Shown here piece after piece: positions 58,449 through 64,000 of a stretch of 64,000 nt of DNA (position 1 is the stretch's first letter; the number at the start of each line of letters is the position of its first letter). The position numbers were made by a program, and so were the translations under genes. This DNA comes from Herbiconiux sp. L3-i23 (lineage in GTDB: Bacteria; Actinomycetota; Actinomycetes; Actinomycetales; Microbacteriaceae). Below the pieces are notes generated by a model. That model saw only the letters and a list, made by a program, of their open reading frames with translations, made no database searches and was not told the origin of the DNA. The stretch covers positions 744,001 to 808,000 of the forward strand of contig NZ_AP025737.1 in assembly GCF_023734115.1 (NCBI RefSeq). The letters are read 5' to 3'.

Positions 58449-59459
58449 TCAGGGGGTTGTGAAGGCCGAGTCGATCGAGTCGCGGTCCGTGACGCCCGTG
58501 GCCAGGACGGTCATCAGGAGCAGGCGGGCCTTCAGGCCGTCCAGGGCGCCCGCCGGGATGAGGCCGCGACGCAGGAGGTCGGTCTCGGATCCCGGATAGC
58601 CGCCGGTGGCGCGGTACAGGTCGCCGGCTCCGGTGCGCGACGCGAAGACGACCGGCATGGTTTCCGATGCGCGGCTGAGCGCGTCGAGCGCGCGGGTGCC
58701 GACGTGGCCGGCGCCGAACACTTCGACGACGAGCCCGTCGTAGCCGAGCCCCGGGATGGCGTCGAGCACCGCGGTGTCGTCGCCGAGCGCGAGGCGGTGC
58801 AGGGCGACTCTCGGTGCATCGGAGACGGCTGGCACCAGGGGAGCCCGTCGTGCTGCGGGGCCGACGGAGAACCGCACGCGGTCCTCGACGATCCACCCGA
58901 TCGGTCCGGCGTCCGGCGAACCGAACGCGCTCGGCCCGGAGGTGCGGGTCTTCCGCACGGCGGGCGCGCGGTGGATCTCGCAGGCGAGCACCACGAGCAC
59001 CCCGTGCGCGGCGCTCTCGGGTCGGGCGGCGACCCGCACCGCGTCGACCAGGTTCGCGGGCCCGTCCGCTCCCGGCTTGCCGGGGTTGCGCATCGCGCCC
59101 GTCACCACCACGGGAATGGTCGCCGGCAGCAGCAGGTCGAGCAGGTACGCCGACTCCTCGAGGGTGTCGGTGCCCTGCGTCACGACGACACCGTCCACCC
59201 CGTCGTCGGCGAGCGCGGCGATGTGCTCAGCGAGTTGCACGATGTCCCGCCACGAGATGTCGGCCGACATCAGCGTGCGGAAGGTCGACGGCTCGACCCG
59301 GGCGATGCTCCCGAGGAGCGGGATCGACGCGACGAGGCCCGCCGCATCGATCGCGAGCGCCGAGTTCGACCCCGTCGCGTCCACCGGCGCGCCGATGGTG
59401 CCCCCGAGCGCGAGGATCGCGACGCGGGGGAGCGAGCCGCTCACGAACCCTCTGCTCAT
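58449..59459 (-). CDS. Asparaginase-family amidohydrolase
   Basis: 336 residues from ATG at 59459; GTG at 59444 with AGAGGG upstream is an alternative. Two-domain asparaginase fold: first Thr in LALGGTIG (Thr21), the second Thr-Asp in TQGTDTLEES (Thr97-Asp98), the GAMRNPGKPGADGP block (Asp132) and a C-terminal VVEVFGAGHVG domain. The acceptor need not be asparagine: it hydrolyses amides of dicarboxylates in general. It is the last gene of a five-gene operon, 13 bases after the deacetylase-fold gene, which could supply a half-amide substrate (inference). Confidence 0.88.
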   Translation of the reverse strand: MSRGFVSGSLPRVAILALGGTIGAPVDATGSNSALAIDAAGLVASIPLLGSIARVEPSTFRTLMSADISWRDIVQLAEHIAALADDGVDGVVVTQGTDTLEESAYLLDLLLPATIPVVVTGAMRNPGKPGADGPANLVDAVRVAARPESAAHGVLVVLACEIHRAPAVRKTRTSGPSAFGSPDAGPIGWIVEDRVRFSVGPAARRAPLVPAVSDAPRVALHRLALGDDTAVLDAIPGLGYDGLVVEVFGAGHVGTRALDALSRASETMPVVFASRTGAGDLYRATGGYPGSETDLLRRGLIPAGALDGLKARLLLMTVLATGVTDRDSIDSAFTTP

Positions 59460-59472
59460 CAACGACTGCCGC

Positions 59473-60390
59473 TCAGGAGCGGAACTCGCGGTCGAACGGG
59501 TACTTCGGGGCCTCCTCGAAGGGGTAACGGCGCTTGAAGTCCTGCACGATCGCATCGCATGTCTCGATGGTGACACCCTCGTGGCCGAGCATGTACTCGG
59601 TGAGCCGCTCGAGCATCAGCAGCACCTGCGGCCGACCCGACACGTCGGGGTGGATGCAGATCGGGAACGACGCGTAGTCGTACTCGCGGTAGACCCAGTC
59701 GAACTGGTCGCGCCACAGCTGCTCGATGTCGCGCGGGTTGGCGAAGCCGTAGCTGTTCGGCGAGCTCTTCACGAACATCATCGGGGGCAGGTCGTCGAGG
59801 TACCAGTTGAAAGCGAGGCTGACGAGCGGGATCTCGGTACCGCGGACGACGGGCTTCATCCACTCGTCGGCGCTCTTGCTGTAGTCGATCTTCGTCCAGC
59901 TGTCGCCCGTGCGCGCGTAGAACGGCTGGAAGTCGTGCAGCACCTGGGTGCGGTCGTACTGGAAGCCGTTCTCGAGGAGCAGGTCGGCGGTGATGGTGGT
60001 CATCTCGCCCCACGGCGCGATGTAGCCGGTGGGCTTCTGGCCGGACAGCTGCTCGATGAGCTCGAGCGAGCGGCCGAGCACGTCGCGTTCCTGCTGCGGC
60101 GACATGTCGCGCGGGTTCTCGTGCGAGTATCCGTGCGCGCCGATCTCGTGGCCGCCCTCGACGACGAGCTGCATCGCCTCGGGGAAGGTCTCGATCGAGT
60201 GGCCGGGAGTGAAGAAGGTGGCCTTCGCGTCGTACTTGGCGAACATCTTCACCAGGCGCGGGATGCCCACCTCGCCGGCCCAGAGGCCGCGCTGGATGTC
60301 CTGCAGGCTGTCCTCGCCGCCGTACGAGCCGAGCCATCCGGCGACCGCATCGACGTCGACGCCGAAACTGACCTTGATTTCCTTTGCCAT
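59473..60390 (-). CDS. HpPgdA/imidase-like polysaccharide-deacetylase-fold hydrolase
   Basis: 305 residues from ATG with GGAAGGAACC upstream. Very close in length and pattern to Helicobacter HpPgdA (recalled): [39 protein letters not shown] and the metal ligands Asp14, His86, His90. HpPgdA deacetylates peptidoglycan, but near relatives (for example the Pseudomonas putida YZ-26 imidase) open cyclic imides. No signal peptide is present, so an intracellular small-molecule substrate is more likely here than peptidoglycan. It sits between a DUF1185 gene and an asparaginase-like gene, which supports the imidase reading. Confidence 0.88.
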
Positions 60391-60414
60391 GAGCGGTTCC
60401 TTCCGGAGTGGTTT

Positions 60415-62227: not shown

Positions 62228-62388
62228 GCCAGTGACGATAGAGCGGTGCGCGCAATGGTGTCAACGTGCGGCGCTGCCATGCAAGTAACGATCTGTGGTG
62301 CTGAATATTTCGCGTTTGTTTCAGTCTTTGTCGGCGGTGGCGCGGCGGTTGACATGCCGGTGGCGAGGTGTGAATACTCGTCGCTACC
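62228..62388. promoter_or_regulatory. Divergent promoter region with candidate GntR operator
   Basis: For the operon (minus): TTGACA at 62259-62264, 18-base spacer, TATCGT at 62235-62240, 7 bases before the ATG. For the hydrolase (plus): TTGACA at 62349-62354, 18-base spacer, AATACT at 62373-62378, 10 bases before the ATG. Both suggest starts at or within a few bases of the codon. An inverted repeat, CTTGCATGCCAG (62221-62232) with CTGCCATGCAAG (62274-62285), 11 of 12 matched, brackets the operon promoter and may be the operator. CATGCAA recurs at 62388-62394. Confidence 0.65.
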
Positions 62389-63225
62389 ATGCAACAGGCC
62401 CCCCGGTTCGTCGCAGAACGAACGCTCACCGATTCCGCCCCTCGGATCGCCTTCTTCGAGTTCGGCGACCCCGCCGGGCCTTCCGTCGTGCTGCTGCACG
62501 GCGTCGGCAGCTCGGCGTCGACCTGGGCCGAACTCGCGCCGCTGCTCGACCCGGCGCGTCACTACCTGCTGCCCGACTATCGCGGCCACGGAGCGTCCGA
62601 CGCGCCCGACGGCCCCTACGTCGTCGACGATTTCGTCGCCGACCTCGACCGCCTGCTCGATGAACGGGGCATCGCCGACGCCGACCTCGTCGGCTTCTCG
62701 ATCGGCGCGGTCATCGCCCTCGCCTTCGCTCTCGCTGAACCAGAGCGGGTGCGGAGCCTCGTGCTGCTCAGCTCGATCGCCGGTCGCACCGACGCCGAAC
62801 GCGAACGGGCACTGTCACGACTCGACCTGATCCGCAGCACCCCGCCGGCGGAGCTGGCGCCTTCGAGCGGCGAACGCTGGTTCAGCGAGGAGTTCCGGGC
62901 CGCCCGCCCCGACCTCGTCGAGGCCGAACTCGCGATCGTCGGCTCCGTCCGACACGCCCCCTACGCCGCCGCGTACGAGGTGCTCGTCGAAACCGATCAG
63001 CTCGACCGGGCTCCCGAGGTCGCCGTCCCTGCGCTCATCGTCACCGGCGAGAACGACGCGGGATCGACGCCCGCGATGTCCGAGAAGCTCGCCGCGCGCA
63101 TCGCCGACTCCCGGCTGCACATCCTTCCCCGACTCAAGCACTACATGCACATCGAAGACGCCCCCGCCGTCGCCGCCCTGGTGAACGGCTTCCTCGACGA
63201 GATCGCAGCGCCGCCTCGTCCGTGA
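62389..63225 (+). CDS. Alpha/beta-hydrolase
   Basis: 278 residues from ATG. The fold is standard: oxyanion HGVGSS, nucleophile elbow VGFSIGAVIALAFA (Ser about 104), acid GENDAG and a late histidine in ILPRLKHYMHIED. The family includes small-molecule esterases, C-C hydrolases and lactonases. It is divergent from the GntR operon and 83 bases ahead of the BMP-type lipoprotein gene, so it likely acts on the same imported compound or a product of it. Confidence 0.9.
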   Translation: MQQAPRFVAERTLTDSAPRIAFFEFGDPAGPSVVLLHGVGSSASTWAELAPLLDPARHYLLPDYRGHGASDAPDGPYVVDDFVADLDRLLDERGIADADLVGFSIGAVIALAFALAEPERVRSLVLLSSIAGRTDAERERALSRLDLIRSTPPAELAPSSGERWFSEEFRAARPDLVEAELAIVGSVRHAPYAAAYEVLVETDQLDRAPEVAVPALIVTGENDAGSTPAMSEKLAARIADSRLHILPRLKHYMHIEDAPAVAALVNGFLDEIAAPPRP

Positions 63226-63307
63226 CCTCCTGATCTATTTCCGATCAGGACAGCTCCACCCGCACCATCACCCTCCACAGCACCACCTTCTAGAGAAGAG
63301 ACGCACA

Positions 63308-64000
63308 ATGAGAAAGTCCTCCTGGTTCGGCGGCACCGCCCTCGTGGTGACCGCATCGCTTCTGCTCGCCGGCTGCGCCGGGGGGAGCGACGACCCCGGC
63401 GCCGACGGCGGTTCCGGAGGCGACGAGGTCACCATCTCGGCGCCCCTCAGCGGTCAGCTCGGCGACCAGAGCTTCATGGACTCCGCCAACGAAGGCCTCG
63501 AGCGTGCCGCCGCCGACCTCGGCGTCACCGTCAGCGTCATCGAGGCGGGCGCCGACGACGCTCCGGCCTGGGAGCGCAACCTCACCGAGGCCTCGGCTTC
63601 GGGCGAGAACGACCTCATCGTCACCGGCGGAACGGTGATGGCCTCGACGCTCGAGCGCGTCGCAGCCCAGTTCCCCGACCAGCAGTACCTGATCTTCGAC
63701 TCCGAGTCGGTCGGCGACAACGTCACCGGCATCTCGTACGCGCAGAACGAGGGCGCCTTCCTCGTCGGCGCGCTCGCGGCGATCATCAGCACCAACCCGG
63801 ACTCGTTCCCCCGCTCCACGGGTGCGAACAAGATCGGCCTGGTCGGCGGCATGGACATCCCCGTCATCCGCGACTTCGCGGTCGGGTACGAGCAGGGCGC
63901 GAAGGCGATCTCGCCCGACATCACCGTCGACCTGCGCTTCGTCGGCGACTTCGAGAGCGCGCAGGGCGCCTACGACATCACGACCGCCATCTTCAACGAC
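63308..64000 (+). CDS. BMP-family solute-binding lipoprotein of an ABC importer (partial)
   Basis: 231 codons to the window edge, from ATG at 63308. Lipobox LAGC with Cys23, then a Gly/Asp-rich linker. The mature part matches the basic-membrane-protein (Bmp/PnrA/Med) family: APLSGQLGDQSFMDSANEGLE, LIVTGGTVMASTLERVAAQFP, GISYAQNEGAFLVGALAA, and GLVGGMDIPVIRDFAVGYEQGAKA. Known members bind nucleosides or purines and work with ABC permeases and an ATPase, which should follow beyond base 64000. Its place next to the hydrolase and divergent operon suggests it imports the substrate. Confidence 0.92.
   Translation, partial: MRKSSWFGGTALVVTASLLLAGCAGGSDDPGADGGSGGDEVTISAPLSGQLGDQSFMDSANEGLERAAADLGVTVSVIEAGADDAPAWERNLTEASASGENDLIVTGGTVMASTLERVAAQFPDQQYLIFDSESVGDNVTGISYAQNEGAFLVGALAAIISTNPDSFPRSTGANKIGLVGGMDIPVIRDFAVGYEQGAKAISPDITVDLRFVGDFESAQGAYDITTAIFND

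Follow-up and report, generated by a model that had tools for sequence, protein, structure and literature searches.

What would a bacterium import and break down with an HpPgdA-like hydrolase (PGD), an asparaginase-fold amidohydrolase (ASN) and two DUF1185 proteins encoded together in one operon? The question is raised by the last genes of a 64,000-nucleotide stretch of the genome of Herbiconiux sp. L3-i23 (contig NZ_AP025737.1, positions 744,001 to 808,000; the window, in what follows). The original prediction, made from these letters alone, had placed seven reading frames here, all of which were found where it put them and belong to families scoring above their Pfam cut-offs, and had read them as a locus for the import, ring opening and deamidation of a cyclic amide or imide. 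Followed past the window and compared to related loci, the cluster forms an island of 13 genes and ~12.1 kb, bounded by the ends of ASN and of the SDR gene sdr2 and arranged in two divergent operons. We give about even chances to the reading that this island is a single catabolic unit, which would import an N-glycoside, remove its sugar, open a cyclic imide and release ammonia.

A predicted cyclic imidase and its candidate half-amidase

PGD aligned without gaps to HP0310 of Helicobacter pylori (structure 3qbu) over residues 1-291, with a score of 442 bits, and retained the metal-binding and catalytic residues D12, D14, H86, H90 and H247 (HP0310 numbering), His247 and Asp12 being those described near the metal water of HP0310 (PMC3084791; this and all papers cited below other than PMC2954203 are cited from extracts). 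Two tryptophans, Trp 127-128, stand beside the pocket of HP0310. This double-Trp lid is incomplete in PGD, in which Trp127 is present and position 128 is Gly; among 81 others, position 128 was Trp in 71, Gly in six (those of the related loci) and Cys in four. According to the same extracts, HP0310 was inactive on the glycans, N-acetylated amines, dipeptides and allantoin with which it was tested, has no polysaccharide groove and was proposed by its authors, on the basis of its pocket, to act on a small molecule (PMC3084791). An activity confined to glycans, which the original prediction had named as fatal to its proposal, thus finds no footing in this homolog. In Aspergillus nidulans, deletion of hxnM, which encodes another member of the HpPgdA family, leads to the accumulation of 3-hydroxypiperidine-2,6-dione, a glutarimide that HxnM was proposed to open; the imide is made by HxnW, an SDR, and the product of HxnM is deamidated by HxnN, an amidase-signature enzyme (PMC9304392). 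An imidase of Pseudomonas putida YZ-26 (AAY98498), a single enzyme of the HpPgdA family that we liken to PGD through the description given of it in the same paper, is 64.2% identical to HxnM (PMC9304392). By comparison, then, PGD belongs to the HxnM family and is a predicted cyclic imidase, in keeping with the ring opening that had been proposed for it.

Relatives of PGD numbered 578, and the loci of the closest 79, together with L104, were examined (80 loci). Within eight genes of PGD, ASN was found in 23 loci and an amidase-signature gene in 34, and no locus held both. Some of the contigs behind these counts are short, and ASN was non-adjacent or on the opposite strand in L036, L059, L061 and L068. 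The one member of the amidase-signature partner group that was tested scored above the cut-off of NCBIfam NF004766 (PRK06102). Because the two enzymes never co-occur near PGD, and read together with the HxnM-HxnN pair, ASN probably takes the place of the half-amidase in the imide route, and the second, deamidating step of the original prediction fits this mutual exclusion. ASN scored 189.6 bits against the type II asparaginase model TIGR00520, below its cut-off of 314.3. The catalytic residues T12, T89, D90 and K162 are present in the window's ASN, and Gln59 and Asn248, which together with Ser58 bind the substrate in Escherichia coli asparaginase II (PMC8325130), are both Ala. Across 26 PGD-linked ASN sequences, T89, D90 and K162 were invariant, T12 was found in 24, Glu283 in 22, and Gln59 and Asn248 in none; the two missing T12 residues are alignment gaps that probably reflect wrong start calls. 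That ASN might be a strict L-asparaginase, the other finding that would have told against deamidation of a half-amide, is therefore not borne out, the evidence being that of replaced residues in 26 of 26 sequences. The E. coli type I asparaginase likewise does without Gln59, carrying Ser instead (PMC6667453), so that the replaced residues make L-asparaginase activity of ASN only less likely.

Two SDR genes, sdr1 and sdr2, are part of the locus, beyond the gene set first described. In a tree of 97 SDRs, sdr2 fell within a group of 39, 38 of which are encoded near a PGD gene (support 100/97, with a long-branch warning). Its best genome-wide match, at 186 bits or more, was a PGD-adjacent SDR in 15 of 19 other genomes, adjacency being judged from the positions of the matches against those of PGD relatives. 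In two further genomes (G591 and G611) the best match adjoined a PuuE-like gene and the second best adjoined PGD, and in another two (G588 and G600) there was no match of the sdr2 group; outside PGD and PuuE-like settings, the next matches scored 167 and then 143 bits. On this comparison, sdr2 belongs to a PGD-linked SDR group. An assignment of sdr1 as the ortholog of a second PGD-linked SDR (tree support 83/84) was not borne out by the genome-wide search and was dropped.

Both arms of the island are conserved together

The import genes that had been predicted to lie beyond base 64000 are indeed there: after the rest of the BMP-type binding protein come an ATPase and two permeases, which complete the importer, followed by a nucleoside hydrolase and the two SDR genes. 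The nearest solved structures to the binding protein were Lbp, BmpA and PnrA. The nucleoside hydrolase scored 270 bits against PF01156 (cut-off 34.2), its motif DCDTGIDDA aligning to DCDPGHDDA of RihA, and its nearest solved structures were RihA-type ribonucleoside hydrolases. The island thus shares the families of its binding protein, ATPase, permeases and hydrolase with known BMP/PnrA-type importers and RihA-type hydrolases, from which it differs in that they are coupled here to an imide module and in that the specificity models were missed (RihA, 185.7 bits against a cut-off of 433; UriH, 157.9 against 450). The combination of a BMP importer with a nucleoside hydrolase makes it likely that the imported substrate is a nucleoside-like N-glycoside, and that of an SDR with PGD and ASN makes it likely that the aglycone is a lactam or imide. 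What stands of the proposed cyclic amide or imide is, by comparison, its ring opening and deamidation; what changes is its import, a nucleoside-like compound being a likelier substrate than a free imide. This proposed link to nucleosides is new relative to the original prediction.

The island lies between argS and lysA in three of nine genomes of the genus. In the other six, the gene at window position 57565-58353 is directly followed by lysA, hom and thrC, whereas in the window genome, G002 and G008 the 13 genes stand between that gene and lysA, in identical order in all three; the housekeeping genes lysA-hom-thrC-thrB follow sdr2. Two further Microbacteriaceae loci, L104 (in G034) and L007 (from a metagenome-assembled genome, MAG), hold 11 of the 13 genes, being devoid of dufA and dufB, the DUF1185 pair, and have one different DUF1185 gene between the nucleoside hydrolase and sdr1. 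A contig end leaves only PGD and ASN in L011. Shared by two other genomes of the genus and two further Microbacteriaceae loci, the gene order is beyond chance, and the concern that it might be unique to this strain falls away.

That a single regulator controls the use of two substrates, an arm for nucleoside salvage and an imide arm being mere neighbors, has a modest chance. The two operons are divergent, one locus (L008) has the imide arm with a different importer and without a nucleoside hydrolase, and clusters for free imides elsewhere have an MFS or another ABC importer. Against such independence, all five loci with both the importer and the nucleoside hydrolase keep both arms together with sdr1 and sdr2, and the nucleoside arm itself encodes a member of the PGD-linked SDR group, sdr2.

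A proposed route and its closest alternatives

In the single-unit route that we propose, the whole island would answer to a single GntR regulator of the FCD type, which would bind the TTGCATGCAA sites of the divergent promoter. The BMP-type ABC importer of the right arm would take up a nucleoside-like N-glycoside, from which the nucleoside hydrolase would strip the sugar; sdr2, like fungal HxnW, would act on the cyclic aglycone, which is probably a hydroxy-lactam, and oxidize it to a cyclic imide; PGD, in the left arm, would open the imide to a half-amide; and ASN would free ammonia from the half-amide, so that a dicarboxylate would remain to enter central metabolism. Help at an aldehyde, lactone or enamide step may come from abH, the alpha/beta hydrolase, and from the DUF1185 pair, like their relatives in trigonelline-type clusters. 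The reactions themselves, the sequence in which they run, what the substrate is and whether it is a nucleoside, and what DUF1185, abH and sdr1 do are all inferences that we draw from what comparison gave directly, namely gene content, order and conservation, the kinship of PGD with HxnM, the exclusion between ASN and the amidase, the linkage of the SDR, the residue changes and the palindrome.

The chemistry would be a variant of the fungal HxnW-HxnM-HxnN series, in which the cyclic imide formed by an SDR is opened by an HpPgdA-family enzyme before an amidohydrolase releases ammonia (PMC9304392). PGD and, by family, sdr2 are the counterparts of HxnM and HxnW. Compared to the Hxn enzymes, the last step would fall to an asparaginase-fold rather than an amidase-signature enzyme, DUF1185 proteins come in addition, as do a nucleoside hydrolase and an importer of nucleoside type, and the pyridine hydroxylases of the upstream steps were not among the genes called in the island. 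Bacterial PGD-amidase clusters (NF004766; MFS or ABC importer, two SDRs, a CxxC protein and a CobW GTPase) have PGD, SDRs, an amidohydrolase and a GntR regulator in common with the island; they differ in carrying the amidase for ASN and Trp at PGD position 128, and, in the loci listed, no nucleoside hydrolase, BMP importer, abH or DUF1185 was called nearby. In the open-licence PubMed Central literature, we found no paper joining an imidase, an asparaginase fold and a nucleoside hydrolase. Thus, the single enzymes resemble known ones, and their combination and target compound appear undescribed.

Several observations weigh against the proposed route. Among NCBIfam models, the ATPase and the (cut) binding protein scored best, below cut-off in both cases, with those of a putative vitamin B6 transporter, and some BMP-family binding proteins bind non-nucleoside ligands. 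L008, from a MAG labelled Hyphomicrobiales, encodes abH, PGD, ASN, sdr1, sdr2, the GntR regulator and a DUF1185 protein alongside a sugar-type importer, with no nucleoside hydrolase in its 20.9 kb. These two results, the scores of the vitamin B6 models and the make-up of L008, are the main grounds for doubt about the nucleoside substrate. Among the genes called in the island there is neither a ring-oxidizing nor a dicarboxylate-using enzyme, and the best match of sdr1 was PGD-adjacent in the genome of L008, not in most others. A CobW-family GTPase, which occurs within eight genes of PGD in 59 of the 80 loci (L006-L084 and L104), is absent from the island. As to the exclusion between ASN and the amidase, the 80 loci are those of the closest relatives of PGD, 23 of them have neither enzyme, and the Fisher p of 1.3e-7 is uncorrected for kinship.

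A more specific form of the route, for which we see only a slim chance, is that it serves N-ribosylated cyclic lactams or imides, possibly damaged pyridine nucleosides from NAD turnover (hydrated or pyridone ribosides). These would be imported whole and lose their ribose before an HxnW-like SDR acts; the change of Trp128 to Gly in PGD would make room for a bulky substrate, the asparaginase-fold enzyme would be a new half-amidase, and the DUF1185 pair would act as helper.

A different fate, the breakdown of a pyrimidine- or hydantoin-type nucleoside, would have PGD act like a dihydropyrimidinase or allantoinase to yield an N-carbamoyl acid that ASN or another enzyme decarbamoylates. PGD does resemble PuuE allantoinase, albeit below cut-off (78 versus 424.6 bits; structures 3cl6 and 1z7a were also matched), the nucleoside hydrolase is closest to the pyrimidine-specific RihA, again below cut-off, several other loci have a dihydropyrimidinase-like gene (cluster 25) in the vicinity of PGD, and an AllG-like gene adjoins PGD in three. 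We nevertheless hold this reading to be unlikely, as we know of no asparaginase-fold ureidase. The enzyme whose place ASN takes is, moreover, of the amidase-signature type, as in the HxnM-HxnN pair, and the extracts on HP0310 report it to be inactive on allantoin (PMC3084791).

A second locus of the same genome, locus B (L005:10452-19210; G000:C1 about 2382452-2391210), encodes, next to an ABC importer of the sugar type, a DUF1185 protein, an isochorismatase-like hydrolase, an amidohydrolase, a nucleoside hydrolase, an SDR, a CaiB-family CoA-transferase and an acyl-CoA dehydrogenase, so that, with the island, the strain pairs DUF1185 with a nucleoside hydrolase twice. In L043, ASN is followed by a CoA-transferase of the CaiB family and an acyl-CoA dehydrogenase that share 54% and 60% identity with their locus B counterparts; the locus B pair scored above no NCBIfam cut-off. 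In L014 and L020, a gene of the Asp/Glu-racemase superfamily precedes PGD. These neighbors fit a dicarboxylate product of the proposed route and, as they differ by locus, allow no choice between a C4 and a C5 compound.

DUF1185 proteins and the abH hydrolase

Three copies of PF06684, the DUF1185 family, are encoded in the genome, and the family is otherwise sparse, occurring in 16 of 199 relatives, in 23 of 396 genomes of the phylum (21 over the cut-off) and in 15 of 40 genomes reached through PGD loci. Sixty-one loci were examined, 59 of which had a called DUF1185 gene (73 genes in total). Neighbors within five genes of DUF1185 included abH-cluster alpha/beta hydrolases (20 loci), aldehyde dehydrogenases (20), GntR regulators of the same cluster as the island's (16), amidohydrolases (16) and luciferase-type oxidoreductases (10). 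Tandem DUF1185 pairs were present in 13 loci. In eight pairs the dufA-type and dufB-type members formed separate clades, supported at 100/98 and 99/91, one unpaired member joining the second clade, and there is a second set of pairs; this suggests that dufA and dufB are obligate partners, perhaps in one mixed oligomer. Two DUF1185 proteins, BB2672 and SPO0826, are reported to form hexamers (PMC2954203). A kinship of DUF1185 with AtzD and barbiturase, considered for a likeness of motifs, was set aside: the AlphaFold model of dufB (pLDDT 96.7) matched only the DUF1185 structures 3byq and 2qtp at a Foldseek E of 0.001 or less, and there was no AtzD or barbiturase among the best 50 of its 279 matches. 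PF09663 had no match in the genome, nor in control genomes, so that this search is silent on its absence.

The abH protein scored 154.7 bits against the PcaD model (cut-off 255.85) and clusters with hydrolases that adjoin DUF1185 in other loci. Relatives of abH and of the DUF1185 pair sit elsewhere with a luciferase-type oxygenase, an aldehyde dehydrogenase, a related GntR regulator and the same palindrome, an arrangement recalling the trigonelline (Tgn) cluster, in which a DUF1185 gene lies beside an alpha/beta hydrolase. A trigonelline-like route, in which DUF1185 and abH would do the main chemistry and PGD and ASN would act on a side product, is nonetheless very unlikely here. The Tgn cluster comprises a two-component oxygenase and an aldehyde dehydrogenase, and no oxygenase, flavin reductase or aldehyde dehydrogenase was called among the island genes. 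TgnF, a DUF1185 protein, reportedly stimulates the oxidation of succinate semialdehyde by TgnE; for HcdD, the extracts report that a TgnF-like stimulation was sought and not obtained (PMC7913881).

That PGD deacetylates the cell wall or glycans, the asparaginase having nothing to do with it, is suggested by the family name and PF01522 and is scarcely credible given the catabolic partners of PGD in its operon and a homolog that is glycan-inactive and lacks a polysaccharide groove (PMC3084791). The label of peptidoglycan deacetylase is widely given to HpPgdA-like proteins, and DUF1185 proteins are assigned to amino acid synthesis; for neither label do the cited extracts give a demonstrated activity, and the island and its relatives supply concrete partners for both. 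If the proposed route is true, bacteria would have swapped an unrelated amidohydrolase into an imide route and coupled that route to nucleoside uptake.

Regulation and layout of the island

The gap between the two operons holds three partial TTGCATGCAA palindromes, the sole ones in the window at two or fewer mismatches. Three matches compare with 5.09 expected in the window, such that their number is not enriched and only the position of the sites and the other loci count; the motif was picked after inspecting these promoters. Across 156 loci (2.71 Mb), exact TTGCATGCAA occurred at seven places, versus 0.85 expected by composition, and six of the seven lay in the 12 loci, the island and 11 others, whose GntR regulator is at least 40% identical to that of the island. 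At one or fewer mismatches there were 47 sites, 15 of them in those 12 loci, of which 12 lay less than 200 bases from the GntR start. The palindrome is also found at the trigonelline-like DUF1185-pair loci L097 and L100. It marks the divergent promoter and may be the operator of the GntR regulator.

The genes of the minus strand are densely packed, with gaps of 13 and 24 bases, then of five or fewer, then an overlap, which bears out the coupled five-gene operon of the original prediction [Table 1].

Table 1 Features of the island, in window numbering; those from 64367 onward lie past the window
Feature	Position	Strand	Family evidence
ASN, asparaginase-fold amidohydrolase, proposed half-amidase (half-amide to dicarboxylate and ammonia)	58449..59459	-	PF00710 2e-53, PF17763 1e-19
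PGD, HpPgdA/HxnM-type metal-dependent hydrolase, proposed cyclic imidase	59473..60390	-	PF01522
dufB, DUF1185/AA_synth protein, second of tandem pair	60415..60963	-	PF06684 193 bits (gathering 27)
dufA, DUF1185/AA_synth protein, first of tandem pair	60969..61544	-	PF06684 175 bits (gathering 27)
GntR/FCD regulator, first gene of minus-strand operon	61544..62227	-	PF00392, PF07729
Operator-like site 1 (TTGCATGCAA, 1 mismatch), at GntR start	62222..62231	.	
Operator-like site 2 (2 mismatches to TTGCATGCAA)	62275..62284	.	
Operator-like site 3 (2 mismatches to TTGCATGCAA), overlaps abH start	62385..62394	.	
abH, alpha/beta hydrolase, PcaD-like	62389..63225	+	PF00561
BMP-type solute-binding lipoprotein	63308..64351 (window ends inside it at 64000)	+	PF02608
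ABC ATPase	64367-65908		
Two ABC permeases	65905-67011, 67008-67952		
Nucleoside hydrolase	67976-68947		PF01156
sdr1 (SDR)	68944-69726		
sdr2 (SDR)	69765-70538		

An 81-base palindromic repeat lies on both flanks of the island (window 58367-58447 and G000:C1:814552-814632). It occurs at 26 places in the genome (51 matches, both orientations counted) and, among the loci compared, only in the window genome.

Other loci with PGD- and sdr2-like genes

The CobW-family GTPase gene found near PGD elsewhere often follows a gene for a small CxxC protein, the one tested having no Pfam match. HP0312, whose locus number is two away from that of HP0310, belongs to the CobW-family group COG0523 (PMC2770081), so that H. 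pylori may have a PGD-CobW unit of its own. In L033, L052 and L073, PGD adjoins a GntR regulator, a gene of the Asp/Glu-racemase superfamily, an AllG-like gene (PF06545, as tested in L073) and a second type of amidase. Finally, a cluster that recurs in L150 and L151 combines a branched-chain-type ABC importer, an isochorismatase-like hydrolase, a methylaspartate ammonia-lyase (538 bits in L150, cut-off 286), a CoA-transferase, an SDR of the sdr2 group and a PuuE-like hydrolase.

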